Assembly: GCF_034555375.1 (NCBI RefSeq)
Contig: NZ_CP140706.1
Location: forward strand, 3,835,001 to 3,899,000
From: Pseudomonas sp. B33.4
GTDB taxonomy: Bacteria > Pseudomonadota > Gammaproteobacteria > Pseudomonadales > Pseudomonadaceae
Direction: 5' to 3'
DNA: 64,000 nucleotides
The notes beneath the pieces are model-generated. The model did not search any database. It was not told the DNA's origin and saw only the letters and a program-made list of their open reading frames with translations. Each line of letters starts with the position of its first letter. Within the stretch, counting starts at the first letter, position 1. This document shows, piece after piece, positions 2,243-43,801 of this stretch. The position numbers were made by a program, and so were the translations under genes.

Positions 2243-2258
2243 AAATAACCACAAGTCC

Positions 2259-2308: not shown

Positions 2309-4060
2309 TCAGGAAACCACTTGGCCGGCCGGCACTTTCAGGCCGTCATGCCACCACGCCGCGAGACTGAAGACGTTGGGTGCCTTGAGAATCGTGAAGT
2401 GGTTGCCCGGCCCGTACCACACCGCCAGATCCGCAACCTGGCGCTGCCAACCCTCGACCATCGCCGCTTGTTCGCGCTGATTGCCCCACGCGTCCAGCGT
2501 CGGGTCATCGACCAGCGCCAGCCGCACCGGCCCGGTGTAGGCCAGTGGCGGTTGATAGACCGTGCGCAAGGCTGTGGCGAAGGTGCGGACCGGGCCATGC
2601 ATCGCCTGCGCTGACGAACGCGCAGACAACACACCGGCGCGTACCATGCCCTCGTGCAGCAGGGACATTTGCATAGTGTCATCAGCCTCGGCGAACGCCA
2701 GCGGATCGATGCCCAGGGACTTGCCGCTGGACAGTTGCAGCGTCTCGATCAAGCGTTCCAGCGCGGCGGTCGTGGTGTACGGTTTGCCCGCTGTGCCATT
2801 GCCACCGGGAGATTCACTGTCGATCAGGGTCAACGACGCCACTTCACGCCCCGCCGCCTGCAACTGCACTGCCATGGCATGCGCGACCCAACCGCCGAAG
2901 GAATGCCCGATCAAGTGCACCGCACCTTGCGGATACAACTGCTCGACGGCTTGCAGATAGCACTTCGCTGCCGCTTCAACCTGGCTGTGCGGCACGCCGC
3001 TGCCATCGAGCCCGCGCGGTTGCAGACCGAAAATCGGCCATTCCGGACCCAGTGCTTCGGTCAGGTGAATAAACCCGGTGACACTGTCGCCCGCGCCCGG
3101 CACGCAGAAGATCGGCGCATGCCCGGCGTGCCCGCTCTGGATGGTCAACACCGGCTGATAAGCCTGGGGCTGCGGTGCCTGTGCTGCCGCCATTGCCTGA
3201 CTGAGGGCCTGACCGAGTGCCTCGATATCCGGCGTTTTCATCATGCTGCGGTGATCCCCCGGCACATCGATGCAACGCAGCAAATCGCTGGCGACTTTCG
3301 GCTCCCAGCCACGGGTCGGACTCGGCTGTACCTGCCCTGGCATCAGTGCCTGAGCGCGGAACAAATGCACTGGCTGGCTGGCCGGGCTGACCCGGTAATG
3401 CGCCAGCGCCAGGCCATGAGCGGCCTCACGATCAAAGTAACTCCAGACGTCCGCTGCGCTCAGTGCGGCCAGTTCCGGGTCAGGCAATTGCTGTTCGCAG
3501 CAGCGCTGGAAAAGTTCGTCGAAGCCGATCAGCTCGACTTCAGCCTCAAGCCTTTCGACGTCAGTCAATGCTTGCAACCCTTCTTGACCACGCATCTGCG
3601 AGCGCGCGCGGCAATGCTCGAGCAACTGACGTTTATCGCGATGCTCGCCGCTCCAACGCGATTTATCCTGGCTGGCCGGATGCGGTGCGTAGGTATCGAG
3701 CAGGCCGACGAACGCCACCGCCTCATCCAGACCGAGCAACTGCTGAGCGACTTCATACGCCAGCAAACCACCAAACGACCACCCGGCCAGACGATACGGC
3801 CCATGCGGCTGCACCGCCCGGATAATCCCGACCATCCGCGTGGCCATGCATTCAAGGGTGCGCAGTTGCGGCTGCCCCAGCGGCACACCGGGCAAACCGT
3901 AAATCGGAAACTGCCCCTCGATGTGCATGCCCAATGCCGGGAAATACACGTCCCGGCCGCTGAACTCATGGATCAGAAATAGCGCATTGTCGCCTTCACC
4001 CGGTCGCACCACGACCAAGCCTTCCGGCTGCGCGAGCGTTGCGCCGGACTGACTGAGCAA
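2309..4060 (-). other. Tandem thioesterase didomain TE1-TE2 of NRPS C
   Basis: TE1 (residues about 5385-5650) has nucleophile GWSFGG and a late His in PGDHRSM. TE2 (about 5675-5940) has GHSFGG and a late His in GPGNHFT. Both therefore look catalytically intact. Tandem TEs are characteristic of Pseudomonas CLP synthetases, where the first mainly releases and cyclises and the second assists; that division of labour is known for the family and is not visible here. Confidence 0.9.
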
Positions 4061-7000
4061 CGCGGCCAGCGCCTCAATGCTCGGACGCTGGAACAACTGC
4101 GCCAGCGTCACCTGTTGCCCCGCACGTTGCAGCAGGTTGACCAGCCGAATAGCCAGCAGCGAATGCCCGCCCAACTCGAAGAAGTTGTCGTGACGACCGA
4201 CCTGCTCGACCTTGAGCACCTCGCCCCACACCTGCGCGAGCAAGGTTTCAACCTCGCCTTGCGGGGCTTCGTAGTGACGGCTGAGCACGGCGTCGAGGCC
4301 CGGAGCCGGCAGCGCCTGACGGTCGATCTTGCCGTTGGGACTCAACGGCAAAACGTCGAGCGCAACAAACGCACCCGGCACCATGTATTCGGGCAATTGT
4401 TCGAGGATGAACGCGCGCAGCGCGTCGATCGCAGGCACAGCACTGCCATCAACTGCAGTGAAATACCCGACCAGACGCTCGTCGCGCATCAGCACCACCG
4501 CCTCGCGAACCAGCGGGTGCTGGATCAACCGCGCTTCGATTTCACCGAGTTCCAGACGCAAGCCATGCAGCTTGACCTGAAAGTCATTGCGCCCGAGGAA
4601 TTCAAGGTTGCCGTCAGCGCGGTAGCGCACCAGATCACCGGTGCGGTACAAGCGATCACCGGCCACAAACGGGCTGTCGATAAAGCGCTCGGCCTGCATC
4701 TGCGGCAGCGCCATGTAACCGCGCGCCACGCCGATACCGCCGATGTGCAACTGGCCAATGACGCCGAGCGGCACCGGTTGATCGTGCGCATCGAGCACAT
4801 ACAGGCGGGTGTTGCAGATGGCTTTGCCGATCGGCAATTCGGTGGACGGCACCGGCATGTGCGGTTCCAGTGTCCACGCCGTGCTGTCGACTGTGGCTTC
4901 GGTCGGGCCATACACGTTATGCAGGCGTACCCACGGCAGGCGTTGGCGCACAGCATCGGCCAGCGCCGCGGTGAGTTCGCCACCACCACAGAACACATCG
5001 GTGAGGCTGGTGCATTCACTGACCTCCTGCAGCTCAACAAACTGCTGCAACAGCGCCGGCACAAACTTGACCACCGTGATCCGTTGCTGACGAATCACTT
5101 GCGCCAGATACGCCGGTTCACGATGACCGCCGGGCCGTGCCAGCACCAGGCGTACGCCGGCCGTCAGCGGCCAGAAGAACTCCCACACCGAACCGTCGAA
5201 ACTGAATGGCGCTTTCTGCAACAACGCGCCGTTTGGGGCTGGCGGACAAATCTGCGAGCCCCAATGCACCAGATTGCACAAGCCACGGTGTTCGAGCATC
5301 ACGCCTTTTGGTGTGCCGGTCGAACCCGAGGTGTAGATCATGTAGGCCAGATTCGAGGCATTGAGGCCGGGCACCTGCGGATTGTTTTCTGATTGCTCGT
5401 GCCAGGTGCATTGGTCAAAGTCGATGACTGCTGCGTCGGTCCCGGCAAACAGCGATCGAGTCGCCGTCTGCACCAGCACTGCCACCGGCGCACAATCCCT
5501 GAGCATAAAGTCCAGGCGCTCCGCTGGGTAAGCCGGATCCAGCGGCACGTAAGCGCCACCGGCCTTGAGAATACCGAGCAACCCCACCACCAGATCGAGT
5601 CCACGCTCGACGCACAGCGCCACCCGCGCATCCGGCCCCACGCCCTGCTCGCGCAGGTGATGGGCGAGGCGGTTGGCACGCGCATTAAGTTCGCGGTAAG
5701 TCAGACAGTGTTCGTCAGTCTGCACGGCGATGGCGTCCGGCTGACGCTGCACTTGCGCTTCGAACAGGCTCTGCACCGGTTGCTCGACCGGGCAATCAAC
5801 CGCTGTCGCGTTGAAATCGCCAAGCAAACGCTGCTGTTCATCCACCGCCAGCAGGTTGATCTGCGCCAACACGGCCTGATCATCACTGACCAATACAGCC
5901 AGCAAACGCTGGAAGTAACCGACAAACCGCCGCACGGTCGCCTCATCGAACAACGCCGTGGCGTAGCGCAACGAACCGCGAACACCTTCCTGTGTATCGC
6001 CCAGGCTCAGCGACAGGTCGAACTTCACGAAGTGATTGTCCCCGGCCACGCCTTCCAGCGTCAGCCCGCCCAGCGCCAAGGCTGGCGCGACGCTGCTGTC
6101 CCAGCTCACCAGAGTCTGGAACAACGGTGTGTGGGAAAGGCTGCGCAGCGGCCGGGTGATTTCCACCACGTGTTCGAACGGCAGATCCTGATGCGCCTGC
6201 GCGGCCAGGGTCTGCGCTTTGACCCGCGCCAGCAACGCTGCGCCCGTCAGCTCACCTGAAGTGTCGACACGCAGCGCGAGGGTGTTGACGAACATGCCGA
6301 TCAGCTCTTCGATCTCGGCGCGGGTACGGTTGGCCACGGGCGAGCCGATCACCACATCGGACTGCCCGGACAGGCGAGCCAACAACATCGCCCACGCGCT
6401 CATGATCACCATGTATGGCGTCATGGCGTGGCGTTGACATAACAGCTTCAGGCCGGCGCTGGTCTGCTCGTCCAGCACTATTTCGACACTGCCGCCGTGG
6501 TGATCCTGTTGCGCCGGACGTGGCCGGTCAGTCGGCAGGCTCAGCAACGCTGGGGCGCCGGCCAGCGTCTGCTGCCAGTAATCGCTTTGGCGCTGCAGCA
6601 CCTCGCCGCTCAGCCAGCGACGTTGCCACACCGCGTAGTCGGCGTATTGCAGGGCCAGCGGTGGCAGCGGGTCGTCCTCGCCGTGACTGAACGCCTGATA
6701 CAACGCCATCAATTCACGAGTCAGCACACCCATCGACCAGCCGTCGGAGATGATGTGGTGCATCGTCAGTAACAGCACATGGTGCTCATCGGCCAGACGC
6801 ACCAGACGACCACGAATCAACGGGCCGTCTTGCAAATTGAATGGCCCGCGCGCCTCCGTGTCGAGCAATGTGCGCAACGCCTGCTCTGCCTGCGGCTGTT
6901 GCCGCCAATCTTCCTCAATCAGCGTCAGCCCACTGTCGACCGGGGCTATCAGCACCTGTGCCTGGTCGTTCAATTGCGTGAAACGGCTGCGCAGGGATTC

Positions 7001-10000
7001 GTGCCGCGCAACGATCCGCGCCAATGCCTGTTGCAGTGCCACGGCGTTCAGCGGGCCACGCAAATGCAGACCCAGAGGAATGTTGTAGGCGGTGTTGCCG
7101 CCGTCCATCTGCGCGAGGAACCACAAACGTTGCTGGGCGAACGACAACGGCAGCGCCTGATCGCGCGGTGCCGGCAGAATTTCCGGCAAGCTGCTGCGTT
7201 CGGCCTGACTCAACACTTCAGCGACCGCCGCCAGTTCCGGGTTGGCAAACAGATCCGCCAGCGCCAGCTCCACGCCCAGTTGCTGGCGCACTTGGGAGAG
7301 CATGCGCATCGCCAGCAATGAATGACCGCCAAGTTCGAAGAAGTTGTCATGGCGGCCGACCTGTTCGACCTGCAACACCTCGGCCCAGACCTGCGCAAGA
7401 GCGGCTTCCAAAGGATTGGCCGGCGCCTCGTAAACCCGACTGAGCAGCGCCTCCTGCGTCGGTGCCGGCAGTGCCTTGCGGTCGACCTTGCCGTTGTTGT
7501 TCAACGGCAATACATCGAGTTGCACCCACGCCGTCGGCACCATGTATTCCGGCAGTCGTGCGTGCATCTGCGCGTGCAGTTCGGCGCTGTCCAAGACGCT
7601 ATCCTGCGTCGTGTAGTAAGCCACCAGCCGCGTGGCGTCCTGACCGTCGCGGCGCGCCAGCACCACCGCTTCCTTGATGCCCGGGCAGTTCAGCAGGCGG
7701 TTTTCGATTTCCCCCAGTTCGATGCGGAAGCCACGGATCTTCACCTGATCGTCGTTACGCCCGATGCAATCGAGTTGCCCCGGCGCCAGCCAACGCGCGA
7801 GGTCGCCAGTGCGGTAGAGCAGCGCACCCGGTTTTTCACTGAACGGATCGCAGAGGAATTTCTCGGCGGTCAGATCCGGCCGATTCAGGTAACCCAGCGC
7901 CACGCCCTGCCCGCCGATATACAGCTCGCCGGTCACGCCCATCGGCACCGGTTGCTGATACGCGTCGAGCACGTACACCTGCGTGTTGCCGATGGGGCCA
8001 CCAATCGGCACGCTCTCGGCATTTTCAGCCACCTCCTTCACTTCGAACGTCGTTGCGTAGGTGGTGGTTTCGGTCGGGCCGTAGCAATGCACGATGCGCA
8101 ACGCCGGGGCCTCGGCCAGCAGTCGCCGGAATGCCGCTGGATCGCCACGCTCACCGCCGCACAGCAGAATCCGCAGGCCCTTGAGCGCCTGCGCAATCAG
8201 TTGCACGTACTGGTTGAACAGCGCGGTGGTGACAAACAGGATCGTCGCGCCGCTGGCACTCAGTTCACGGCCGAAGGCATTCGGATCAAGCAGGGTTTGA
8301 TGGTCGATGACCACCACGCGACCGCCGTTGAGCAGTGGCCCCCAGATGTCCATGGTGCTGGCGTCGAACGCCGGGTTCGAGGCGAACACCACACGATCCT
8401 GGGCAGTGAAATCGGCGTAACCGTTGTTGAGCACCAACCGACCGATGCCCCGATGCGGCACCATCACCCCTTTCGGCGTGCCGGTGGAACCCGAGGTGTA
8501 CATGATGTACGCCAGCGCCTCGGAAGACTGCACAAGATTCGGATTGTGCGTCGGCTGGCCGTTGAGGGTCAGGGTGTCGAGATCGATGCGCGGCGCGGCG
8601 TAGGCGATGATTTCACTGCTCAAGGTTAGCAGCGCCACTGCCTGACAGTCCTCGACCATGAACGCCTGGCGTTCGCTCGGCGCATTGATGTCCAGCGGCA
8701 CGTACGCCGCCGCACACTTGGCAATGGCCAATTGCGCCACCAGCAGCTCCAGCGAGCGCGGCAGCAGGATTGCCACGTGATCGCCCGGTTGCACGCCGTG
8801 AGCGATCAGGTGATGGGCCAAACGGTTGGCTTGGGCATTCAGCTCAAAGTAACTCAGCGAATGCGCACCATGCACCGCCGCCACAGCCTTGGGATGCGCG
8901 GCCGCCTGCTGCTGGAAAATTCCGTGCACGGTCAGGGTTTGCGGGTAATCGCGCGCCGTGGCGTTGAAGTCACGCAGCAAGCGCTTGCGCTCATCTGCTG
9001 CCAGCAACGGCACCTGTTCCAACACCGTTTGATCACTGCTGATCATCGCTTCAAGCAAGCGCTGCAAGTAGCCGATGTACCGCTCGACCGTCGACGCATC
9101 GAACAGCGCCGTGGCGTAGTTCAGCGAACCGCGAATCACTCCATTGACCTCGCCCAGTGTCAGCGTCAGGTCAAACTTGGCGACATCGCCCGACCCGGCA
9201 ATGCCCTCCAGCGTCAGATCGCCCAACGCCAGTTGCGGGCCGACGCTACTGTCCCAGTTCAATGTGGTCTGGAACAGCGGGCTCTGCGCCAGACTGCGCA
9301 GCGGTCGGGCGATTTCCACCACTTGTTCGAACGGCAGATCCTGATGCGCCTGGGCCGCCAGTGTCCGCGCCTTGACCTGCGCCAACAGCGCTTCGACGCT
9401 CACCGCGCCCGAGGTGTCGATGCGCAAGGCCAGCGTGTTGACGAACATGCCGATCAAGCCTTCGAGTTCAGCGCGGCTGCGGTTGGCCACCGGCGCACCG
9501 ATCACCACATCGGTCTGCCCGGACAGGCGACTCATCAGCGATGCCCAGGCACTCATCACGGTCATGAACAGGGTCACGCCGTGACGTTGGCTCAAGGCCT
9601 TGAGCCCTGCACTCAGGCGCGGGTCCAGCAGCACTTCGACGTTGCCGCCGGTGTAATCCTGCTGCGCCGGACGCGGGCGATCGGTCGGCAGCATCAACAA
9701 GGCCGGCGCGCCGTCGAGGGTCTGCTGCCAGTAGTCGCTTTGCTGTTGCAGCACTTCACCGCTGAGCCAGCGCCGCTGCCACACGGCGTAGTCGCCGTAT
9801 TGCAGGGTCAGGGCTGGCAGCGGATCAGGCTGCCCATGGCTGAACGCTTGATACAACGCCATCAACTCAGCGGTCAGCACACCCATCGACCAGCCATCAG
9901 CGACGATGTGATGCACGGTCAACAGCAGCACATGATGCTCGTCGGCCAGACGCACCAGTCGCCCACGAATCAACGAATCGTCCTGCAGATCAAAGGCTGT

Positions 10001-13000
10001 TGAGGCTTCTTGCGCCATCAATGCCTGCAAGGTGAGTTCGGCTTGCAAGTCTTGGCGCAGGTCTTCCACGCGCAAGAGCAAACCGCTGTCGACCGGGGCA
10101 ATCGACACCTGTGCGCCGTCGTCGAGGCGAATGAAGCGGCTGCGCAGGGTTTCGTGGCGGGCAACGATCCGCGCCAGCGCTGATTGCAGGGCATCGACGT
10201 CGAGGTGACCACGCAAGCGCAGACCGACAGGGATGTTGTACGCCGAGTTGCCACCCGCCATCTGCGCCAGGAACCACAGGCGTTGTTGGGCGAAGGACAT
10301 CGGCAGCGCTTGATCACGCGGTGCCGGCACGATGTCCGGTAGCACGCTGCGCCCGGCGCGATTCAATACTTCAGCGACTGCGCGCAATTGTGCGTCGGCA
10401 AACAAATCACTCAGCGCCAGTTCGACGCCGAGGCGCTGACGGATCAGCGAAACCATGCGCATCGCCAACAGCGAATGACCGCCGAGTTCGAAGAAGTGAT
10501 CGTGACGGCCGACCTGCTCGACTTGCAGCACTTCGCCCCAGATCTGCGCCAGCGCGGTTTCCAGTTGGCCTTGCGGCACCACGTATTCGCGGGTGGGCAG
10601 TGCGGCCAGATCCGGTTTCGGCAACGCCTTGCGGTCGACCTTGCCATTGGCGGTCAGCGGCAAAGCCTCGAGCCGGACAAACGCCGCCGGCACCATGTAG
10701 TCCGGCAACTGCGTCAACAGCTGTGCGCGCAATTCGCCCACTGCCAGTGGCTCGGCCCCGGTCTGTTCGGTGAAGTACGCCACCAGTCGCGGCTGGCCGG
10801 GTTGGTCCTCGCGGGCCAGCAGCACCGCTTCGTTGATACCGGGGAGCTGATTGAGACGGGTCTCGATTTCGCCCAATTCAATGCGCATGCCACGGATTTT
10901 CACCTGGTCGTCGTTACGCCCCAAGTAGTCGAGCAAGCCGTCTTCGCGCCAGCGGGCAAGGTCACCGGTGCGGTACATGCGCGCATTCGGCGTGCGGCTG
11001 AACGGGTCGAGCAGGAAACGTTCGGCGGTCAGATCAGCACGATTCAGATAACCCCGAGCTACTCCGGCGCCACCGACGTACAACTCGCCCATCACGCCCA
11101 TTGGTACCGGGCGTTGCTGCTCGTCGAGCAAATAGACCGCCGCGTTCGCCACCGGTTGGCCGATGTGCAACGCCGCGCCCACTTCGACATGCCCGGAAGT
11201 GGCGACCACAGTGGCCTCGGTCGGGCCGTAATTGTTGATCACGGCGAAGCGCTGCTGACGGCTGAACTGACGCAAGCGATCGCCACCAATCAGCAAGGTG
11301 CGCAAGGTCGGATGATCAAGATTCTGGCTGAAGGCGTATTCGGCGACCGGTGTCGGCAAAAAGCTCACGTCCAGCGGTTGCGCGCGCCACCAGTCGAGCA
11401 AGGCATCGACGTCTTCCGCGCCGTCGTGAGTAGGTGCCAGATGCACCGTCGCGCCCGCACACAGTGCCGGCCAGACTTCCCACGCCATGGCATCAAAGCC
11501 AAACCCGGCGAGGCTTGAGGTGTGGTTGCCGGCACGCAAGTCGAACGCCTCACAGTGCCAGTCGACCAGATTGGACAACGTCTGATGTTCGACCATGACC
11601 CCTTTGGGCAGACCAGTCGAACCCGAGGTGTAGATCACGTACGCCAGATGCGCAGCGGTCAGGCCCGGCACCGCAGGATTGTGCTGCGCCTGCGCCGGCC
11701 ACGCGCACAGGTCGACATCGATCACTGGCACAGTCAGCAGTGGCAGTCTTTCGTGCAGATCGCTTTGCGTGAGCACCGCGACCGGCGCGCTGTCGCCGAG
11801 CAAATAGCTGATCCGCTCGGCGGGATGCGCCGGGTCGATCGGCACATAACCGGCGCCAGCCTTGAGGATGGCGACCAGCCCGACCAATGTATCCAGCCCC
11901 CGGCGGGCGACGATGGCCACGCGGTCATCGGCTTTCACCCCATGTTCGATCAAGTGATGAGCCAACGCATTGGCCTGGCGATTGAGCTGCAAGTAAGTCA
12001 GTGGCTGTCCGGCAAACAGCGCTGCCACGGCCTGCGGACGCTCGGCGACCTGCGACTCGAAGCGCTGCGCAATCGTCAGCCCACGCGGGTAGTCGGCTGC
12101 GGTTGCATTGAAGCGTATCAGCAACTGCTCGCGCTCTGCTGCCGGCAGGATCGACAACCGGTCAAAACCCACATGCGGAGTATGCTCCAGCGCATCAAGC
12201 AATACGTTCAACGCAGCCTGCATGTACCCGCAAATGCGTTGCGCATCAATGCCGGCCCCGGCCAATACCTTCAGGCTGAAACCTTCACCGAGATCATCGA
12301 CGCTGAGGGTCAGGCGATAGTTGCTGTGTTCCTCGGCATTGAGCAATTGCATACCGTGCCACGCTGCCTGCACCTCGGCGGATATCGGCCCGACCGGGGC
12401 GCTGTGACGATAATTGAGCAATGTGCTGAACAGCGGCGTGCCCGCTGGCATGGCGCTGCACTGTTGCACCTGCGCCAGTTGCGCATGCTCGTGAGCGAGC
12501 AACTGACTCAGGCGTTCGTGGGTCGCCAGTGCGGCGCCTTTGACGCTATGAGCGTTCAGCTCGATGCACAACGGCAAGGTGTTGATGAACACACCGAGCG
12601 CGCGCTCCGAGCCTTCACCACCCTGCAATCGGCCGAGCAACACCGTGCCAAACACCACGGCGTCGCGCCCGGACAACTGCCCCAGCACCTGCGCCCAGGC
12701 GAGGTGCATCAGGCTGGCGGCGCTGACACCCAAGCGCCGCGCCTGCTGACGCACGCTGTGGCTCAGTGGGCTTTCCAGATTCAGTTGCGCCTCTTGTGCG
12801 GGGCCGTCGTCGGTCAGACTCTGTCCGTAGGGCAAGGTCGGCTCATCAACAGCGCCGAGCATCTCGCTGAAGAAACCGGCGTGCTCTTGCTCGGTCAGGC
12901 CGGAACGGGTGTGCGCCACATAATTGCGGTACGGCACCGGCTCGCTCAGTTGCCCGGCGTTCCCCAGCAGAAACGCCTGCATCTCGTGCTGCAACACTTC

Positions 13001-16000
13001 GAGCGCCACGTGATCCATGACCAGGTGATGGAACAGCAGTAATGCCACCACGCGTTGATTGACCTCATCGCGGCTGTACACCACGCGCATCAGTGGCGCC
13101 TCGGCAACCGGCATACGGTAGTTATCGATGGTGAATCGCGCCTGTAACTGGCTCAGCGCATCGCCTGCTTTGGTATCCGGTTCCAATGCCTCGCAGCTCA
13201 GCGAAGCCTGACGCCAGACCACTTGCACCGGCTCTTCCAGCCCCTCCCAGAACAGCGACGTGCGCAGAATGTCATGGCGTTCGATCACCCGTTGCAGCGC
13301 GTCGGTAAAGGCCTGCAATCGCTGTTCATCAGCAAAGGCAAACTGCGCCTGCAGCACATACGGATCGCCCTGTGCGGCCGACAGATGATGGAACAGGATG
13401 CCAGTCTGCAAAGGAGCCAGCGGATAGATGTCCTGAACGTTGCGCGCACCACCGGGGACGCTCGCAACGATGCGGTCGATCGTCGCCTGATCCAGCGCCA
13501 CCAGCGGCAGCAGTTCAGGCGTGATGCGCGTGCAGTCGGCTGGAATCAGGTTCGCCGGCACCGCCGCTTCAGGCTTCCCGCCCACTGCCGCCGCCAGTGC
13601 GGCCAGCGTCGGTTGGCCGAACAGCACGCGAATGTCCGCCGACAGGCCGGCCCGACGCATGCGTGCGACCAGATTGACCGCCAACAACGAATGGCCGCCC
13701 AGTTCAAAGAAATGATCAAAGCGCCCTACCCGCTCGACCTTTAGCAACTCGGCCCAGATACCGGCAATCACGGTTTCGACTTCACCGACCGGGGCTTCGT
13801 ACTCGCGGGTCAGCAGCGCCGACGGGTCAGGGGCCGGCAAGGCCTGGCGGTCCAGTTTGCCGTTGGGGCTCAGTGGCAAGGCCTGCAGATGCACAAACAC
13901 GGCAGGCACCATGTAATCCGGCGAGTGCGTGAGCAATTGGCTGCGTAGCTGATCGGTTTCCAGTAGCTCGCCGCTGTAATACGCGACCAGACGCTGATCG
14001 CCCGGCACGTCTTCACGAGCGAGCACCACCGCTTCGCGCACGCCGTCGATGTGCGCCAGATGTGCCTGAATCTCGCCCAACTCGATGCGCAAACCACGGA
14101 TTTTGACTTGATCGTCGTTGCGCCCCAGGTACTCGATGTTGCCATCAGCCAGATACCGCGCGACGTCGCCGGTGCGGTACAAACGCGCGCCGGGCTGATC
14201 ATTGAATGGATCGTCGAGGAAGCGTTCGGCCGTCAGTTCAGGTCGATTCAGATAACCCCGCGCCACCTGCACCCCGCCCAGATACATCTCGCCGACCACA
14301 CCCAACGGCGTCGGTTGCTGATGCGCATCAAGGATGTACACGCAGGTGTTGCACAGCGGTTTGCCGATTGGCGGCGTGCCGTCCGGCACCGGCGAATCTG
14401 CCTCCAGCGTCCACACGGTGCTGTCGACAGTGGCTTCGGTCGGGCCATAAACGTTATGCAGGCGCACCTGCGGCAGACGCTCGCGGACGCTGCGCACCAA
14501 CGCGGCGGTCAGCTCACCGCCACCACAGAACACATCGCTCAGGCTGCGGCACTCAACGACGTCTTCCACTTCAAGGAATTGCTGCAACAGCGCCGGTACG
14601 AACTGGACGACATTGACCTGTTGCTCACGAATCAGCTGCACCAGCGCGGCCGGATCGCGGTGGTCGTCCGGGCCGGCGAGAACCAGACGCATGCCGCTGG
14701 TCAATGGCCAGAACAGCTCCCACACCGAAGCGTCGAAGCTGAACGGGGTTTTCTGCAACAGCGCGGCGCCAGTCGGCAGCGGACACAGGCCGGTGCTCCA
14801 GTGCAGCAGATTGCCCAGGTTACGGTGCTCGACCATCACGCCTTTCGGCGTGCCGGTGGAGCCGGAGGTGTAAATCACATAGGCCAGATTCGCCGCGCTC
14901 AAGTCCGGCACCTGCGGGTTGCTTTGCGCAAGGTTTTGCCAAGTGCAATTGTCGAAATCGACCCGCACGCCCGCCCACTCGCCGATCAGCGCACGCGTCG
15001 GCGCATGCACCAGCACCGCCACGGGCGCGCTGTCCTCAAGCATGTAGGCCAGACGCTCGGCGGGATAACCCGGATCCAGCGGCACATAAGCGCCGCCAGC
15101 CTTGAGAATCGCCAGCAGCCCGACCAGCAGCTGCGGCCCGCGCTCGACGCAGATCGCCACCCGCGCATCGCTGCCCACGCCGCACTGGCGCAAGTGATGC
15201 GCGAGGCGGTTGGCGCGGCGGTTCAACTCGGCGTAGCTCAAACGCAGCTCACCGGCCACCACGGCGTCAACGTCAGGTGTGCGCAATACCTGCGCCTCGA
15301 AACGAGCATGAACGGTCTGCTGGAGATCGTGGGCGACGGCGGTTGCGTTCAGATCGAACAGCAGATGCTGACGCTCGTCATCTGCCAACAGCGCCACCTG
15401 CTCCAGTACCGCTTGATCGTTGTTGACCATTGCCTGCAACAGTCGCTGGAAGTAACCGACATAACGCTCAATGGTCGATTCGTCGAACAGGGCAACGGCG
15501 TACTCCAGTACACCGCGAATCCCGCCCGGCGCCTCAGCCAGCGTCAGCGACAGATCGAATTTGGCGAAATGGCTCGGCTCGGCGACGCTTTCCAGCGTCA
15601 GCTCGCCCAGGCTCAGGCTAGCGCCGTGGCCGCTGTCCCAACTGAACATCGCTTGAAACAACGGGCTGTGCGCCATGCTGCGCAGCGGCCGGGTGATTTC
15701 CACCACTTGCTCGAACGGCAGATCCTGATGCGCCTGCGCTTGCAGCGTCCGCGCCTTGACCCGCGCCAGCAGCGCTTCGCAGCTCAACTCGCCCGACGTA
15801 TCAATACGCAGCGCCAGGGTGTTGACGAACATGCCGATCAGGCCTTCGATCTCGGCGCGGGTACGGTTGGCCACAGGCGAGCCAATGACCACCTCGGATT
15901 GCCCGGACAACCGACTCAACAGACTCGCCCAGGCGCTGAGCATGAGCATGTACATCGTCACGCCATGACGCTGAGCCAAGGCCTTGAGTCCAGCACTCAG

Positions 16001-19000: not shown

Positions 19001-20148
19001 GGCGCCTTGCATACGGCCCATCAGCACCGTACCGAACACCACGTTTTGTTTGCCGGTGAGCACTGCCAGCACCTGTGCCCAGCCCAGATGAAACAGGCTC
19101 GCGGCACTCACGCCGAGTTGCCGCGCCTGCGCGCGCAAACGCTGGCCGAGCAACGGGTTGATCGGCTGGCTCAGCTCGCCGATGCCGAGGCCGTCACCCT
19201 GCACGTCCTGCAAACCGTACGGTAGCGTCGGCTCGGCAATGTCAGCGAGCATCTCGCGGAAAAAACCCTCGTGTTCGGCTTCGCTGATGCCCAGCCGCGC
19301 CTGCGCCACGTAATTGCGAAACGGCACCGGGCGCCCAAGCGATTGATCGTCGCCGGTGAGGCAGGCGAGCAGTTCGTGACGCACCACGTCGAGCGCCGAG
19401 TGGTCCAGGGCCATGTGATGGAACAACAACGTCGCGACCACGCGCTGACCGTCCTCGTCCCACGCGTAGGCCAGACGCATCATCGGCGCACACCGGACGT
19501 CCAGTCGGAAATGCCGTGCATCGAAACGTTCGTGCAGTTGCTGCAGCGCATCACTTTCGCCGTCTGCCAGCACGACCTCTTCCATCGGCAGCTGTGCCTG
19601 ACGCCAGACCACTTGCAGCGGCACGTCCAGCCCCTCCCAATGCACCGCTGTGCGCAGGATATCGTGGCGATCAATAACCTTTTGCAACGCCTGGGCGAAA
19701 TCCTGCAGACGCTCACGGCTGTTGAACGCGAAGTACGATTGCATGACGTAGGGATCGCCCTGCTCGTTGCTCGCATGGTGATAGAGAATGCCTTCCTGCA
19801 ACGGCGCCAGTGGGTAGATGTCCTGCACATTGGCGGCGCCGCCGGGTACCTCGGCGATCAAGCGGTCGAGGGTCGGCTGATCCACTTCGGCCAGGGTCAC
19901 CATCGCTGGCGTGATGTGCGTGCTGCCGGAAAGAATGCCGTTGGCCGGGACGTCGATCTGGCCGACGCGGCTGGCCGAGTATTGCCCGGCCTTGATCAGT
20001 TCGATCAGTGCCGGTTTGTGTTCACGCAGCGCGGCCAGCAGTGCCGGATCGCTCAAGGCCTGTTTGTTGCCGTTCACCCGCAGCTGATCATCGGTGACCG
20101 CCAGTTGGATGTCTTTAGCCTTCAATGTGGCCAACAGTTCGAGCACCT

Positions 20149-20152
<4 letters not shown>
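2309..20152 (-). CDS. Lipopeptide NRPS, third subunit: five modules (Leu7-Gln8-Leu9-Ile10-Glu/Asp11) plus tandem thioesterases
   Basis: This 5947-residue synthetase (corresponding to ArfC of arthrofactin) adds the last five residues and releases and cyclises the lipopeptide. It begins with a TubC-like docking domain (residues 1-55), then five C-A-T modules whose carrier serines lie near residues 1097, 2153, 3227, 4277 and 5329, all in intact GGHSLL motifs. Two thioesterase domains follow, with nucleophile motifs GWSFGG near 5458 and GHSFGG near 5749. Pocket residues read DAWFLGNVV (Leu), DAWQFGVVD (Gln), DAWFLGNVV (Leu), DAMFLGCTY (Ile/Val) and DGWKFGVVD (acidic). Condensation domains of modules 7 and 9 are dual condensation/epimerisation type (HHxxxxxGD after the first core motif); modules 8, 10 and 11 are LCL type (SFAQQRLWFLAQM). 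There is no stand-alone E domain. Translation starts at GTG (20150-20152), overlapping the previous stop as GTGA, with GGAG eight bases upstream. Confidence 0.97.
4060..7200 (-). other. Module 11 (LCL C - A[Glu/Asp] - T)
   Basis: The LCL-type condensation domain (SFAQQRLWFLAQM) predicts that residue 10 remains L. The A-domain pocket reads D-G-W-K-F-G-V-V-D, with Lys at position 278 as expected for an acidic side chain, but it differs from the classical Asp code DLTKxGxVG. Core A8 reads NDFQVK, whereas all modules other than 2 and 11 read NDDQVK. The carrier motif is GGHSLLAIRL, unique to this last module before the thioesterases. Confidence 0.8.
7200..10365 (-). other. Module 10 (LCL C - A[Ile/Val] - T)
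   Basis: The pocket reads D-A-M-F-L-G-C-T-Y, a branched-chain (Ile, possibly Val) code. The A4 core is FDASTMD, without the Trp seen at position 239 in every other module. The condensation domain is LCL type, so Leu9 stays L. The carrier motif is GGHSLLAMRM. Confidence 0.8.
10365..13585 (-). other. Module 9 (dual C/E - A[Leu] - T)
   Basis: The dual condensation/epimerisation domain (core LQTGILFHH followed by GDPY) predicts D-Gln8. The pocket D-A-W-F-L-G-N-V-V specifies Leu. The carrier motif GGHSLLAMRM precedes an LCL domain. Confidence 0.82.
13585..16755 (-). other. Module 8 (LCL C - A[Gln] - T)
   Basis: The LCL condensation domain predicts that Leu7 stays L. The pocket D-A-W-Q-F-G-V-V-D is a Gln-type code. 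The carrier motif GGHSLLAVNL has the Val form found before dual C/E domains. Confidence 0.8.
16755..20152 (-). other. Module 7 with N-terminal docking domain (dual C/E - A[Leu] - T)
   Basis: Residues 1-55 form a TubC-like docking domain (KVLELLATLKAKDIQL..., ending in LREHKPALIELI). The dual C/E domain (LYHHASNEQGDPY) predicts D-Ser6. The pocket D-A-W-F-L-G-N-V-V specifies Leu. Confidence 0.82.
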
Positions 20153-33159
<13,007 letters not shown>

Positions 33160-33314
33160 GAGGTAACCTGCTGTAAATACGGAAAAAAGGAGCGCGCAGC
33201 AGCGAGTCCGTGCAGACGGCGCGCAGCTTGGAAAAACTAAAACATCGGGGCGTGGGTGTCTGACATGGGAAGCGGGGACAAGCCATATCGGATATGGGCC
33301 ACACAACCGGCCCC

Positions 33315-33405: not shown

Positions 33406-33420
33406 GGATTGTGGTCGCCG

Positions 33421-36400
33421 TCAGAGCCGGCGTTTGCGGTTGAGGCTCGGGATGGTGGTCTGGGCGACCTCGACCTGTTTCGCCTGCCGCGAGGTCTGTG
33501 CCGCCAGCGCGGACAGCGTCGGCTGGCTGAACAACGTCCGCGCATCGACATGCAGGCCGGCCAGACGCATGCGCGCGACCAGACTGACCGCCAGCAACGA
33601 ATGCCCGCCCAGTTCGAAGAAGTTGTCGTCGCGCCCGACCTGCTCGACCTTGAGCACCTGAGCCCAGATCTGCGCCAAGGCAATTTCCACGTCGCCTTCA
33701 GGTGCCGCATAAGGCCGACTGAGCAGCGCTTCCGCCCCCGGTTCCGGCAATGCCTTGCGATCGATTTTGTCGTTGGGCGTCAAGGGCAACGCCACCAACA
33801 TCACGTAGGCGCCAGGCACCATGAACTCCGGCAACTGCGCCAACACATGCGCTCGCAATGCTTCAAGCGTCGGCGCAGTCAGCTCGGCACGCAGGGTGTA
33901 ATAAGCCACCAGCCGCTCATCGCGCACCAGCACCACCGCCTCGCGGATCGCCGGATGTTCCAGCAGGCGCGCTTCAATCTCGCCCAGCTCAAGACGCACC
34001 CCGCGCAGCTTGACCTGAAAGTCATTGCGACCGAGAAACTCGAGATTGCCGTCAGCGCCGTAACGCACCAGATCCCCAGTGCGATATAAGCGGTCACCGG
34101 CCACGAACGGGCTGTCGATAAAGCGTTCGGCCTGCAACTGCGGCAGCCCCAAATAGCCCCGCGCCACGCCCACCCCGCCAATGTGCAAATGCCCGCTGAC
34201 GCCAACCGGCACCGGTTGATCGCCGGCATCGAGCACATACAGCCGCGTGTTGCTCAGCGCCTTGCCGATCGGCACCTGCGTCTGCGGCAGCGGTTCACCG
34301 GGTTCCAGGGTCCAGCCGCTGCTGTCGACGGTGGTTTCGGTCGGTCCATAGACGTTGTGCAGGCGCACCCACGGCAGGCGCTCACGCACTTGCCGGGTCA
34401 GCGCAACGGTCAACTCGCCGCCACCGTTGAGCACGTCGGTGAGGCTGGTGCACTGGCTGACGTCGTCCTGTTCGATGAACTGCTGCAACAGCGCCGGGAC
34501 GAACTTGACCACGGTAATGTTCTGCTCGCGGATCACTTGCGTGACATACGCCGAATCGCGATTGCCGTCGGCCCGCGCCAGCACCAAACGCATGCCTGAG
34601 CACAGTGGCCAGAAAATCTCCCACACCGAACTGTCGAAACTGTACGGGGCCTTTTGCAGCAACGCGCCGTGTTCAGTCGGCGGAGCCAGTTGCGAGCCCC
34701 AATGCACCATGTTGCAAGCGCTGCGGTGTTCGATCATCACGCCCTTCGGTGTACCGGTGGAGCCGGAGGTGTAGATCATATAGGCCAGATTCGCCGCGCC
34801 GAGGCCCGGCACCTGCGGATTGTCGAGGGGCTGGTCCTGCCAGGCACCGAGGTCGAGATCGATCAGCGGCACGCCGGGTTCGCCGAGCAGATCACGCGTG
34901 GCCCCATGCACCAGCAGCGCGACCGGTGCGCTGTCCTGCAACATGTAGTTGAGCCGTTGCAGCGGATAATCCGGATCGAGCGGCACATAAGCACCGCCAG
35001 CCTTGAGAATGCCCAGCAGACCGATCACCAGTTCCGGCCCGCGCTGGACGCAGATCGCGACCCGCGAATCCGGCTGCACGCCGAGCTCGCGCAGATGATG
35101 AGCCAGGCGGTTGGCCTGCTCGTTGAGCTGGCGATAGGTCAGGCGCTGATCGGCGAATTGCACGGCGATGGCATTCGGTTTGCGCTGCACCTGTTGTTCG
35201 AACAGCGCCTGCAGTGGCTGGTCCATCGGGCAATCGACCGCCGTATCGTTGAACTCGATCAGCAGCCGTTGCCGTTCTTCCTGCGGTAACAACGGCAGGC
35301 TGTTCAGCGGCCGCTGCGGCGTGTTCTCCAGTGCCTCGACCAAACCGTTCAGCGCCGACTGCACATAACTGCAAATCCGTTGCGCGCCGATGCTCGACAG
35401 GGTTCTGGTGGTCAGACGCAAGCCCGTGCCGAGGTCATCGACACTCAGGGTAAACGGGTAATTGGTGCGTTCCTCGTTGGCCAGCGTTTCGATGCCCTGC
35501 CAGGTTTGCCGGGAGTTCTTTTGCTCGACGTCATCGCTGTGCCGGTAGTTGAGCAAGGCACTGAACAGCGGCGCTGGCGCGGCAACGCCACTGCAACGCT
35601 GGGCCAGCGCCAAAGAGGCATGTTCATGGGCGAGCAAAGCGGTCAGGCGCGCATGGGTGGATTTCACCGCCGTACGCGCGCCTTCACCGACATCGACCCG
35701 CAGCGGCAAGGTATTGATGAATACGCCCAGCGCCCGGTCGGCCCCTGCGCCGCCCTGCATGCGCCCCATCAGCACCGTGCCGAACACCACGCTTTGCTGC
35801 CCGGATGTTGCCGCCAACACTTGCGCCCAGGCGAGGTGGATCAGGCTGGCGACGCTGACGCCAGCCAGACGCGCCTGCTGCTGCAAGCGCTGATAGAGTT
35901 CGCTGGCCAGGGTTTGCTCGGCTTCTTCGATGTTGCTGCCATCGCCCTGGACGTTCTGCAAAGCGAACGGCAAGGTCGGCTCGTCGATGTCGGCGAGCAT
36001 CTGGCGAAAGAACGCTTCGTGCTCCTGTTCACTCACGCCCAGTCGCGTCTGCGCCACGTAGTTGCGATACGGTACTGGCGGCGCCAGCGTCTCCGAGTGC
36101 CCGGACAGGCTGGCGTGAATTTCTTCGCGCATCGCCTCCAGCGCAATGTGATCCATTGCCAGATGGTGGAACAGCAAAATGCCGACCACTCGGTTGTGCG
36201 CCGGATCACGGGCATACATCAGGCGCAGCAGCGGCGCCTGACTGACATCCAGACGATAGCGCCGAGCATCGAAGCGCGCGTGCAACTGATCGATGATCGC
36301 GCCGTGGGCTGGATCAAGTTCAACCTCTTGCACCGGCAGAATTCCCTCGCGCCACACCACCTGCACTGGTGACGTCAGCCCTTCCCAGACCACGGCCGTG

Positions 36401-36720
36401 CGCAGGATGTCGTGGCGTGCCATGACCTGACGCAACGCAGCGGCGAAGGCCTCGACCCGCTCGATGCTGTCGAACGCCAGCAGTGATTGCAGCAGATACG
36501 GATCGCCCTGCGCGGCGGTGATGTGGTGATAGAGAATGCCTTCCTGCAACGGCGCCAACGGGTAGATGTCCTGCACATTGGCGGCACCGCCTGGCACGGT
36601 TGCGACGATACGCTCGATCATCGCCTGATCCAGTTGCACCAGTGGCAGCAGCTCAGGCGTGATGTGCGTGCAATCGGCAGGAATGCGGTTGGCCGGCACC
36701 TCGACTTCGCGGCCACTGCC
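33421..36720 (-). other. Module 2 (dual C/E - A[Glu/Asp] - T)
   Basis: The pocket reads D-S-W-K-L-G-V-V-D; Lys278 suggests an acidic residue, but the code is not the classical Asp code. Core A8 is NDFQVK, shared only with module 11. The dual C/E domain predicts D-Leu1. The carrier motif is GGHSLLAVSL. Confidence 0.78.
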
Positions 36721-39700
36721 CTCCGCCGCTGCCAGCGCGGCCAGTGTCGGTTGGCTGAACAGCACCCGCACATCGCTGCTCATACCGATCTGACGCATGC
36801 GCTCGATCAGCCCGACCGCCAACAATGAATGGCCGCCCAGTTCAAAGAAATGGTCGTGACGCCCTACCCGTTCGACCTGCAGGACTTCGGCCCAGATCTG
36901 TGCCAAAGCGATTTCGACGTCACCTTGTGGCGCCTCGTACGCGCGACGGATCAACGCCTCCGGTCCCGGTGCTGGCAAGGCCAGGCGATCGAGTTTGCCG
37001 TTGGCCGTCAGTGGCAACGTCGCCAAGCGCACGTAAGCCGCCGGCAACAGGGCGGACGGCAAGCGCGAGGTCAAATGCGCGTGCAGTTGCAGGATATCCA
37101 GCGCCTCATGCTCGGTGAACCATGCCAACAGCTGACCGTCGCGCACCAGCACCACGGCTTCCTGTACCGCGTCATGACTGCTGAGCGCCGCTTCGATTTC
37201 GCCCAGTTCGACACGCACACCGCGCACCTTCACCTGATCATCGTTACGACCGATGTACTCAAGGTTGCCGTCGGCGCGCCAGCGTGCGAGGTCGCCGGTG
37301 CGGTACATGCGCGCATCCGGCTGCGCAATGAACGGGTCGTCGAGGAAGCGTTCGGCGGTCAATTCCGGGCGATTCAGATAACCCCGGGCAACCCCGGCGC
37401 CGCCGACATACAGTTCGCCAATGACGCCAATCGGCACCGGGCGCTGCTGATCATCGAGCAGGTAAGCCGTGGCATTGCTCACCGGTTTGCCGATGTGCAA
37501 CGGCTGCCCCGGGGTGATCAGCCCCGAGGTCGCCACCACCGTGGCTTCGGTCGGGCCGTAGTTGTTGACCACCGCAAAAGACTGCGCACGTTTCAACTGG
37601 CGCAGACGATCGCCGCCGATCAGCAAGGTGCGCAAGGTCGGATGGTCGAGTTGTTTGCTGAAAGCGTATTCGGCAATCGGCGTTGGCAGGAAGCTGACGT
37701 CCAGCGGCTGTGCCCGCCACCAGTCGAGCAGTGCGTCGATGTCTTCGTTGCCTTCGCTTGCGGGCGACAAGTGCAGCGTTGCCCCGGCACACAGCGCCGG
37801 CCAGACCTCCCACGCCATCGCGTCGAAACCGAAGCCGGCGAGGCTCGAAGTGTGCTGGCCGGGGCCGAGACCGAATGCCGCGCAGTGCCAGTCGACCAGA
37901 TTGCCGAGTGTGCGGTGCTCGACCATCACGCCTTTGGGCAATCCGGTGGAGCCGGAGGTGTAAATCACATAAGCGAGGTTGTTCGTGGTCAACCCCGGCA
38001 CGTCGGGATCGACTAAGTTGTCGAGCGACCACTCGCGCCGATCGAGCTCGATCACCGGCAGCGCTGTGGCGGGCAAACGCTCACGCAGATCGCTTTGGCT
38101 CAGCAACGCCACTGGAGCACTGTCACTGAGCAAATAGCTCAGGCGCTCGGGCGGATGCGCCGGGTCAATCGGCACATAAGCGGCGCCAGCCTTGAGAATC
38201 GCCAGCAGCCCGACCAATGTATCGAGGCCTCTGCGGGCAACAATCGCTACCTGGTCATCCGGCCGTACGCCGAGGCCCAGCAGATGATGGGCCAGCGCAT
38301 TGGCTTGCCGGTTCAGTTCGGCGTAGCTCAGCGACCGCCCCTGATAAGTCGCGACCACGGCGTCCGGCTGTTCGGCCACGCGCGACTCGAAGCGTTGATG
38401 AATTGTCCGGTTTTGCGGATAGCTGACTCGGGTGTCATTCCACTCATTCAACCGGGCGAGTTCTGCCAGGCTGTTCAGGTTGAAATCGGCGACGATCCGC
38501 TCAGGAGACTCCAGGCCTTGCTCCAGAATCAGCAACAAGCGCTCGGTGAACGACGCTATCTCATCAGCCGTGAAACAGGCCGGCGAGTACACCAGATGCA
38601 ACCAGGCCTTGTCGTTGTACCGGTTGCTGCGCAGGTGAATGGCCAGCGGTGTCGCCTCGTGCTGGTTGGAGACCTTGACTGAGTGTCCCAACGCCTCCCC
38701 GTAGCGATATTCATGGTCGTCCTGCTCGTAGGACACCGACAGTTCGAACAGCTGCGAACGGTCTTCGCGCAACAGGCCCAGCGCGCGGTTCATCTCGCTC
38801 AGCGGGTAGCGCTGATGGCGAAAATCCTGCTTGAGGCCATCGCCGATTGCTTTGATCAACTCACCAAATGACAGTGCCCGGCCAAAGCCCATGCGCATTG
38901 CACTGACCTGGGTGAATAACCCAAGAGTGCTTTTGAAACGGGCACCGGAGCGATTGAGAATCGGCAACCCGACCACCCACTCGTCACGTTGGGCAGTGCG
39001 ACTGAAATACACATGCAGCGCCGCCAGCAAGACGTGAAAGGCCGAACCACCCCATTGCCGCGCGCAGTCCTTCATGCGCTCGTGCAGCACGGTTGGAAAA
39101 GCCTCGACGTGGATGCGACTGGGGGCGGTTTCAACGTCGAGGGATTCGCGATGGCGGGCAGTCAACAAGGGTTCGGGCAGGCTGCGGTACTTGTTCAGCC
39201 AGTAGCGTTGATCAAGCTCATAGCGCGGTGACTGCTGGTAGCGCGCGTCATCCTCGATGAAGTCGACATAGGACGGTGCCGCCCCACTCGGGCGCTCGCC
39301 ACGGCACAACGCGCTGTAGATGTCGCCCAGCGACTTGAACAGCAGAGCAAAAGCCCAGCCATCGATAATCAAGTGGTGGGCCTGCGCCGCCAACCAGTGG
39401 CGATCGCGATCGAGGCGAATCAGACTGCAGCGGAACAACGCTTGCCCGCTCAGCCCAAAGGCCTGCGCCATCTGCGCTTCGACCAACGCCCTGGCCGCCG
39501 ACTGTGGATCGGGCTGCCCGCTGACATCAAGCAGCGGCATGGCCACCGGCAACGCCTGGGCAAACCCTTGCAACGGCAGCCCGTCATGACCAACGTCCGA
39601 TAACAGAACAATGCGCAAGGCATCATTCGCTTCCACCAGAGATTCAAGCGCCGTTCGCAGCAATGCCGGATCCAGCGGCCCGGTCAGTTCGACATAACCG

Positions 39701-39831
39701 CCAATGTTATACAGCGGCGAATCTCCGCGGCTCAGTTGGTCCAGCCAGATATCCCGTTGAGCGGCAGTCAGCGCGAATGTCTCGACAGGCACGGACAGAT
39801 CGTCCGCCACGTTGGCAGAAGTAGGCTGCAT
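33421..39831 (-). CDS. Lipopeptide NRPS, first subunit: lipo-initiation and two modules (Leu1-Glu/Asp2)
   Basis: This 2136-residue synthetase (ArfA equivalent) starts the lipopeptide. Its first condensation domain (residues about 15-450) is of the C-starter type: core LTAAQRDIWLDQ, no upstream carrier domain, and active-site HHLIIDG. Such domains acylate residue 1 with a beta-hydroxy fatty acid. Module 1 has the pocket DAWFLGNVV (Leu), with its carrier Ser near 1000. Module 2 has a dual C/E domain (LQEGILYHHITAAQGDPY), so Leu1 is predicted D, and the pocket DSWKLGVVD (acidic); its carrier Ser is near 2078. The ATG at 39829-39831 has AAGGA six bases upstream. The C-terminal tail is basic (SLNRKRRL). 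The promoter must lie in the 488-bp region shared with the divergent luxR-type gene. The gene is complete and in frame, with all core motifs present. Confidence 0.96.
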   Translation of the reverse strand: MQPTSANVADDLSVPVETFALTAAQRDIWLDQLSRGDSPLYNIGGYVELTGPLDPALLRTALESLVEANDALRIVLLSDVGHDGLPLQGFAQALPVAMPLLDVSGQPDPQSAARALVEAQMAQAFGLSGQALFRCSLIRLDRDRHWLAAQAHHLIIDGWAFALLFKSLGDIYSALCRGERPSGAAPSYVDFIEDDARYQQSPRYELDQRYWLNKYRSLPEPLLTARHRESLDVETAPSRIHVEAFPTVLHERMKDCARQWGGSAFHVLLAALHVYFSRTAQRDEWVVGLPILNRSGARFKSTLGLFTQVSAMRMGFGRALSFGELIKAIGDGLKQDFRHQRYPLSEMNRALGLLREDRSQLFELSVSYEQDDHEYRYGEALGHSVKVSNQHEATPLAIHLRSNRYNDKAWLHLVYSPACFTADEIASFTERLLLILEQGLESPERIVADFNLNSLAELARLNEWNDTRVSYPQNRTIHQRFESRVAEQPDAVVATYQGRSLSYAELNRQANALAHHLLGLGVRPDDQVAIVARRGLDTLVGLLAILKAGAAYVPIDPAHPPERLSYLLSDSAPVALLSQSDLRERLPATALPVIELDRREWSLDNLVDPDVPGLTTNNLAYVIYTSGSTGLPKGVMVEHRTLGNLVDWHCAAFGLGPGQHTSSLAGFGFDAMAWEVWPALCAGATLHLSPASEGNEDIDALLDWWRAQPLDVSFLPTPIAEYAFSKQLDHPTLRTLLIGGDRLRQLKRAQSFAVVNNYGPTEATVVATSGLITPGQPLHIGKPVSNATAYLLDDQQRPVPIGVIGELYVGGAGVARGYLNRPELTAERFLDDPFIAQPDARMYRTGDLARWRADGNLEYIGRNDDQVKVRGVRVELGEIEAALSSHDAVQEAVVLVRDGQLLAWFTEHEALDILQLHAHLTSRLPSALLPAAYVRLATLPLTANGKLDRLALPAPGPEALIRRAYEAPQGDVEIALAQIWAEVLQVERVGRHDHFFELGGHSLLAVGLIERMRQIGMSSDVRVLFSQPTLAALAAAEGSGREVEVPANRIPADCTHITPELLPLVQLDQAMIERIVATVPGGAANVQDIYPLAPLQEGILYHHITAAQGDPYLLQSLLAFDSIERVEAFAAALRQVMARHDILRTAVVWEGLTSPVQVVWREGILPVQEVELDPAHGAIIDQLHARFDARRYRLDVSQAPLLRLMYARDPAHNRVVGILLFHHLAMDHIALEAMREEIHASLSGHSETLAPPVPYRNYVAQTRLGVSEQEHEAFFRQMLADIDEPTLPFALQNVQGDGSNIEEAEQTLASELYQRLQQQARLAGVSVASLIHLAWAQVLAATSGQQSVVFGTVLMGRMQGGAGADRALGVFINTLPLRVDVGEGARTAVKSTHARLTALLAHEHASLALAQRCSGVAAPAPLFSALLNYRHSDDVEQKNSRQTWQGIETLANEERTNYPFTLSVDDLGTGLRLTTRTLSSIGAQRICSYVQSALNGLVEALENTPQRPLNSLPLLPQEERQRLLIEFNDTAVDCPMDQPLQALFEQQVQRKPNAIAVQFADQRLTYRQLNEQANRLAHHLRELGVQPDSRVAICVQRGPELVIGLLGILKAGGAYVPLDPDYPLQRLNYMLQDSAPVALLVHGATRDLLGEPGVPLIDLDLGAWQDQPLDNPQVPGLGAANLAYMIYTSGSTGTPKGVMIEHRSACNMVHWGSQLAPPTEHGALLQKAPYSFDSSVWEIFWPLCSGMRLVLARADGNRDSAYVTQVIREQNITVVKFVPALLQQFIEQDDVSQCTSLTDVLNGGGELTVALTRQVRERLPWVRLHNVYGPTETTVDSSGWTLEPGEPLPQTQVPIGKALSNTRLYVLDAGDQPVPVGVSGHLHIGGVGVARGYLGLPQLQAERFIDSPFVAGDRLYRTGDLVRYGADGNLEFLGRNDFQVKLRGVRLELGEIEARLLEHPAIREAVVLVRDERLVAYYTLRAELTAPTLEALRAHVLAQLPEFMVPGAYVMLVALPLTPNDKIDRKALPEPGAEALLSRPYAAPEGDVEIALAQIWAQVLKVEQVGRDDNFFELGGHSLLAVSLVARMRLAGLHVDARTLFSQPTLSALAAQTSRQAKQVEVAQTTIPSLNRKRRL
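36720..39831 (-). other. Module 1 (C-starter - A[Leu] - T)
   Basis: A lipo-initiating condensation domain is followed by an A domain with the pocket D-A-W-F-L-G-N-V-V (Leu) and a carrier domain with GGHSLLAVGL, the Val form that precedes dual C/E domains. Confidence 0.83.
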
Positions 39832-41114: not shown

Positions 41115-41147
41115 GCACAACGCTCTTTATATGCATGAGGCAGTTTG

Positions 41148-43784: not shown

Positions 43785-43801
43785 TCTGACTAAGCGGCAA
43801 T

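Follow-up and report, generated by a model that had tools for sequence, protein, structure and literature searches.

Which lipopeptide does the large nonribosomal peptide synthetase (NRPS) locus of Pseudomonas sp. B33.4 make, and how far can its product be named from the genes? The locus lies in a stretch of 64,000 nucleotides (contig NZ_CP140706.1, positions 3,835,001 to 3,899,000), referred to here as the window, in which three consecutive minus-strand genes, S1, S2 and S3, encode the synthetases NRPS A, B and C. As judged from the sequence, it is very probable that they form a complete Amphisin-family cluster of the tensin/milkisin sequence type, with the predicted peptide Leu-Asp-Thr-Leu-Leu-Ser-Leu-Gln-Leu-Ile-Glu. 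The features of the family are present together: a 2+4+5 arrangement of modules, the pockets for Leu1 to Leu7, dual condensation/epimerisation (C/E) domains, no separate epimerisation (E) domain, tandem thioesterases (TE) and the luxR, oprM and macAB neighbours. The pockets typical of tensin, milkisin and stechlisin (Gln8, Leu9, Ile10 and Glu11) are also found, and the Asp11 pocket of amphisin is not. The system is of an already known kind, an ordinary bacterial lipopeptide assembly line.

Motif and Pfam searches place eleven condensation (C), eleven adenylation (A) and eleven thiolation (T) domains in the three genes, and eleven modules running through three open frames exclude a chance pattern. 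The stop codon of S2 overlaps the GTG start of S3; for S2 itself we judge an ATG at about 33159 to be a likelier start than the listed TTG. In eight of eight gaps inside a protein, 193 or 226 residues separate a T motif from the C motif that follows it, a distance so short that an E domain would not fit. A preliminary description of this DNA, made from its letters, had placed the synthetases at 2309-39831, with the same module split, tandem TEs and no E domains; the searches and the T-to-C spacing bear this out.

Substrates were predicted from nine variable pocket positions in each A domain, read via sequence-motif anchors, with the tenth residue, a lysine, assumed. For the PheA numbering of these positions the usual scheme is presumed, not computed, and the milkisin cluster serves as the calibration. 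The pocket DAWFLGNVVK (Leu) occurs in A1, A4, A5, A7 and A9, DFWNIGMVHK (Thr) in A3 and DVWHMSLVDK (Ser) in A6; the remaining codes are given in Table 1. They agree with the earlier pocket reading, Leu-(acidic)-Thr-Leu-Leu-Ser-Leu-Gln-Leu-Ile-(acidic), and pocket identity with the milkisin cluster now assigns its two acidic residues as Asp2 and Glu11. At A10, Val and Leu are possible in minor congeners, by analogy with the stechlisins (PMC8788793).

The calibration comes from Pseudomonas crudilactis UCMA 17988, which makes milkisin, Leu-Asp-Thr-Leu-Leu-Ser-Leu-Gln-Leu-Ile-Glu (PMC8788793); fragmentation of milkisin gave Asp2, Gln8 and Glu11 and left Leu and Ile open (PMC5985324). The pocket codes of its cluster and of the window are identical at 11 of 11 positions. 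Since Asp2 of milkisin has DSWKLGVVDK and Glu11 has DGWKFGVVDK, these codes mark Asp and Glu, respectively. Acidic residues can thus be assigned through a characterised relative, which separates amphisin-type from tensin-type clusters. Neither code string was found in the open-access full texts searched, though subscription papers or supplements may print them.

How widely these codes are shared was read from 22 whole clusters. A genome scan gave 21 loci, 12 of which align with the full 1216-residue query (one over 1215 residues) at 85-93% identity, P. crudilactis UCMA 17988 among them; ten more clusters came from the matches listed in a 398-genome genus search (A11 matches 72-93%, frames of 5,963-5,996 amino acids). 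Six entries (G242, G241, G210, G067, G407 and G173) share contig coordinates with loci already in the set and were counted once, and five (G030, G381, G346, G078 and G158; A11 matches 65-67%, frames of 5,938-5,954 amino acids) were left out. All eleven window codes recur in seven clusters, the milkisin cluster included, while four deviate at a single A3 pocket position and three have an Ile-type A9 code, otherwise with the Glu-pocket A11. P. atagonensis PS14 combines a different A2 code with an Ile-type A9. The other seven carry DSWKLGVVDK at A11. In six of them A8 has a Ser code, and G265, one of the six, also has an Ile-type A9; the seventh, G311, combines Gln8 with an Ile-type A9 and departs from the window's codes at A4 and A10. 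For the products of these seven, Asp11 is the prediction.

Two side observations concern possible congeners. In P. atagonensis PS14 (L014/L025, G006) the family's Asp code at A2 is replaced by DGWQFGVVDK; residue 2 of the predicted congener would be Glu or Gln. L010, L018 and L019 (G002, G010 and G011) have Gln8-Ile9-Ile10-Glu11 pockets, a combination not found among the named compounds in the available passages of the literature.

The configuration was approached through the C domains. C2-C7 and C9 are of the dual C/E type, with the C3 signature motif HHxxxDH and PF00668 scores of 153-178 bits; the elongated His motif HH[IL]xxxxGD is present in six of these seven, C7 being different. C8, C10 and C11 have HHxxxDG, score 358-388 bits and are not dual C/E. 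These types predict D,D,D,D,D,D,L,D,L,L,L, the order already derived from C subtypes in the preliminary description, and motifs and scores uphold it as a prediction. It coincides with the published configuration of amphisin and with as much of that of tensin as the available text gives (PMC3039948). A PDB search with C2 returned five chains, from microcystin synthetase B and PvdL (E up to 1e-30), and no structure from the Amphisin family. The motif reading across clusters was made without C10 of G010, C5 of G265 and C5 of G311; the C2 motif of G311 reads HHLINDA. The C-domain motif types of the window proved to be the same as those of the milkisin cluster, which gave no means of choosing between tensin and milkisin.

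Several points weigh against the tensin/milkisin assignment. The product of the window strain is predicted from the genes, and the Asp/Glu calibration rests on one chemically characterised cluster. A domains can be promiscuous: arthrofactin A11 and stechlisin A2 each recruit Asp as well as Glu, and within the Amphisin family the A domains for the two acids reportedly cocluster (PMC9948697). C/E domains do not always yield a D residue, orfamide having six C/E domains and five D residues (PMC3039948). Finally, milkisin equals tensin in residue sequence, yet their nuclear magnetic resonance (NMR) spectra differ (PMC8788793); since the milkisin cluster has the C motif types of the window, sequence does not settle the configuration.

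This last point gives weight to the possibility that the product shares the residue sequence of tensin and is nevertheless milkisin or a further isomer; this is a special case of the tensin/milkisin assignment, and the odds of the two overlap. The milkisin cluster is as near to the window (93.1, 93.0 and 93.6% identity for S1, S2 and S3) as the S3 protein of P. zeae (92.8%). Against a different isomer stands the agreement of the C-domain pattern with the configuration of amphisin and the visible part of that of tensin, and we consider such an isomer unlikely, if by no means far-fetched.

Amphisin proper (Gln8, Leu9, Ile10, Asp11) lies just one CH2 away from tensin at residue 11, and the reported coclustering of Asp and Glu domains, like the double recruitment by arthrofactin A11, speaks in its favour. 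However, A11 of the window shows DGWKFGVVDK, as does the Glu11 module of the milkisin cluster, and not the Asp pocket carried by synthetases of the amphisin and lokisin patterns, which is why tensin, milkisin or stechlisin is favoured over amphisin. Wider sampling of S3 argues the same way: 120 of 949 scored proteins were listed, 51 of them of 5,000-6,000 amino acids, and 47 of these were read, with P0052, P0057, P0058 and P0079 (5,350-5,434 amino acids) left out. Gln8-Leu9-Ile10-Glu11 was found in 16 of the 47 (the window's own protein included, and two with only four A domains), and one further protein shows this tensin pattern with a variant Gln code. The amphisin pattern, Gln8-Leu9-Ile10-Asp11, was read in four (P0075, P0076, P0080 and P0082), all with DSWKLGVVDK at A11, plus one with a variant A11. 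Ser8-Leu9-Ile10-Asp11 accounts for 17, plus one with a variant A11, and Gln8-Ile9-Ile10-Glu11 for four; single proteins have the arthrofactin pattern Ser8-Ile9-Ile10-Asp11 and Gln8-Ile9 with a variant A10 and Asp11. The remaining protein, P0085 (Pseudomonas sp. NPDC087346), has the Gln-type DAWQFGVVDK at module 11, possibly for an amphisin-family peptide ending in Gln.

Full-length comparison of S3 with the window covered 14 of the 47 proteins, P0076 not among them: four tensin-pattern proteins are 90.3-93.4% identical, against 84.5-88.8% for three amphisin-pattern ones. P0044, a protein named from P. zeae, is 92.8% identical and P0037, named SteC, 90.3%, and in modules 7-11 both have the same codes as the window; tensin production is proven for the P. 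zeae type strain, OE 48.2 (PMC8788793). For 92 A2, A6, A8 and A11 domains, a quick tree (31 of 89 inner forks open) places the window's A11 in a group of 16 A11 domains with DGWKFGVVDK (approximate likelihood-ratio support, SH-aLRT, 93), where it shares one six-row fork with the milkisin A11 (support 81), and the seven A11 domains with DSWKLGVVDK group with A2 domains (support 99). On this evidence amphisin itself is very improbable.

Practically no credence is left for a product outside the Amphisin family, be it gacamide or some other peptide of 11 residues. Several A domains of gacamide have homologues in the Amphisin family, but gacamide stands in a separate 11:5 family, with its residues reshuffled and a five-residue ring (PMC9948697), and has seven modules in NRPS-A plus NRPS-B (PMC12948218), where the window has six. 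The window's residue order fits the Amphisin family position by position; gacamide was therefore rejected, on the ring size, residue order and module split given for it in the literature. The preliminary grouping as amphisin/tensin/gacamide-type thus holds for the Amphisin family and its Gln8-Leu9 branch, as the pockets show, and was too wide in the rest, given the Glu pocket of A11 and the separate family of gacamide.

The tensin/milkisin assignment suggests the following route. The starter C domain would acylate Leu1, with 3-OH C10 as the probable fatty acid by analogy, and the eleven modules, acting in line, would add the residues from Leu1 to Glu11, while residues 1-6 and 8 would be inverted by the dual C/E domains in modules 2-7 and 9. 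A C10 product of this type would be expected near m/z 1409, the value given for milkisin C (PMC5985324). The tandem TE would then free the chain, the C-terminal acid being esterified to the Thr3 hydroxyl in a nine-residue ring, as in arthrofactin. Export would be by a pump of the MacA-MacB/OprM type, presumably under LuxR-type control.

Members of the Amphisin family vary at positions 8, 9 and 11 (PMC9948697). Tentatively, and at somewhat less than even odds, we propose that these positions were switched by copying of A domains within a synthetase: A6 to A8 (Gln to Ser), A10 to A9 (Leu to Ile) and A2 to A11 (Glu to Asp). The window may, on this proposal, keep the uncopied state at all three. 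A-domain cores were compared against all 23 clusters, and the own donor is clearly best in two of seven cases for A11/A2, one of six for A8/A6 and one of six for A9/A10. The A11 core of G265 (L114-L115) is 96.0% identical to its own A2 versus 91.3% to the best A11 of another cluster, and that of G311 (L126-L127) 94.5% versus 91.6%; the A8 core of G265 is 95.7% identical to its own A6 versus 89.9%, and the A9 core of P. atagonensis (G006, L100-L101) 94.2% to its own A10 versus 91.0%. As controls, identity to the A2 of the same cluster is 74-81% for four A11 cores with DGWKFGVVDK, and identity to the A6 of the same cluster is 64-65% for three Gln8 cores. There was no clear own-copy signal in this comparison for five of seven A11, five of six A8 and five of six A9 cases, which would fit inheritance of an older event but also the lack of any copying.

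In G265, five of six 60-residue bins past the A3 region of module 11 reach 95-100% identity with module 2 of the same cluster (the sixth 87%), and the same bins are 60-83% identical to module 11 of the window; the preceding C domain follows module 11 of the window (68-93%), not module 2 of G265 (22-41%). Module 8 of G265 likewise resembles its own module 6 (87-98%). In DNA, A2 and A11 are 86.7% identical over about 1.7 kb in G265 and 88.2% in G311, with exact runs of up to 65 and 92 bases; elsewhere the values are 75.7% in the window, 76.5% in the milkisin cluster and 78.9-80.2% in three other clusters with an Asp-pocket A11. These values point to A domains having been copied, in some lineages, from one module to another of the same synthetase, although gene conversion may merely have evened out the sequences, and copying may have run in either direction. 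Module and domain duplication and the Gln/Ser switch have already been discussed for the family (PMC9948697); the A2/A11 and A10/A9 cases are not mentioned in section 18 and the available passages of that paper.

Table 1. Positions of the synthetase genes, selected domains and neighbouring genes (window positions unless marked L134).
Feature	Position	Strand	Details
NRPS A (S1)	33421..39831	-	2136 amino acids; modules 1-2, predicted Leu1-Asp2; starter C domain
NRPS B (S2)	20149..33306	-	4385 amino acids from listed TTG; modules 3-6, predicted Thr3-Leu4-Leu5-Ser6
NRPS C (S3)	2309..20152	-	5947 amino acids, GTG start; modules 7-11, predicted Leu7-Gln8-Leu9-Ile10-Glu11; tandem TE
Tandem thioesterases	2309..4100 (outer bounds approximate)	-	GWSFG about 3784-3770, GHSFG about 2908-2894
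C1, fatty-acyl starter	38461..39780	-	HHLIIDG; PF00668 248 bits
C2, dual C/E	35260..36576	-	HHLAMDH; HHITAAQGD; residue 1 predicted D
C7, dual C/E	18506..19828	-	HHMALDH; variant elongated motif HHASNEQGD; residue 6 predicted D
C8, LCL type	15359..16693	-	HHIISDG; residue 7 predicted L
C9, dual C/E	12119..13438	-	HHLVMDH; HHLSAAQGD; residue 8 predicted D
A2-T2	33615..35307	-	DSWKLGVVDK, predicted Asp; code of A2 (Asp2) of the milkisin producer; in tree
A8-T8	13705..15406	-	DAWQFGVVDK, predicted Gln; code of A8 (Gln8) of the milkisin producer; in tree
A9-T9	10489..12166	-	DAWFLGNVVK, predicted Leu
A10-T10	7336..9034	-	DAMFLGCTYK, predicted Ile
A11-T11	4177..5869	-	DGWKFGVVDK, predicted Glu; code of A11 (Glu11) of the milkisin producer; in tree
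MacA/PleA-like membrane fusion protein	1094..2254	-	Pfam HlyD_3, HlyD_D23
MacB/PleB-like ABC exporter	3..1091, cut by window edge	-	complete, 652 amino acids, in L134:8133-10091
LuxR-type regulator (luxR1 position)	40320..41114	+	Pfam GerE
OprM/PleC-like outer membrane efflux protein	41145..42542	+	Pfam OEP
Second LuxR-type gene	L134:5749-6522, outside window		about 1.6 kb past macB

The macA-like and macB-like genes lie downstream of the cluster, and the luxR-type and oprM-like genes upstream and divergent from it; luxR1, an oprM-like gene, macA-macB and often luxR2 are the genes described around Amphisin-family clusters (PMC8788793). Outside the window, the second luxR is flanked by genes for a DUF6124 protein (L134:7088-7453) and an isochorismatase-like protein (L134:4825-5775). 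Within it, positions 42700-58156 encode SCO1/SenC, a PhoD-like phosphatase, an NMT1-like protein, a TonB-dependent receptor, a two-domain peroxidase and an M1 aminopeptidase. The minus-strand frame 48227-50161 had no Pfam match; opposite it is a longer plus-strand frame, 48260-50470, outside that scan. Scans of the window for Rfam families (gathering threshold) and transfer RNAs were both empty, and a phage collection searched with one NRPS piece gave zero matches. The same genome has more condensation-domain genes (G000:C1:2109514-2145524 and 4577586-4586690), including frames of 4107, 4514 and 4348 amino acids, which we guess are possibly pyoverdine synthetases.

Among known systems, the gacamide synthetase of Pf0-1 is, by published description, like the window in its 11 residues, its Koreensis subgroup and its homologous A domains (PMC9948697), and unlike it in residue order, five-residue ring and seven modules in the first two synthetases (PMC12948218). 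The synthetases of arthrofactin (MIS38) and lokisin/anikasin share the 2+4+5 arrangement and dual C/E domains, for arthrofactin also the tandem TE (PMC3039948), and have MacAB export (PMC8788793), as read or, for export, predicted for the window; by published descriptions their products differ in having Ser8 and Asp11 (arthrofactin also Ile9), against the predicted Gln8, Leu9 and Glu11. Closer are the tensin and stechlisin synthetases, compared in S3 only: P0044 (P. zeae by name) and P0037, which from the name SteC we take to be the stechlisin enzyme of FhG100052, both have an S3 of 5947 amino acids and the codes of modules 7-11 of the window. The milkisin cluster of P. crudilactis UCMA 17988 (L009, G001) matches it throughout, in module split, all 11 pocket codes, C motif types and tandem TE motifs, and differs from it in sequence divergence only.

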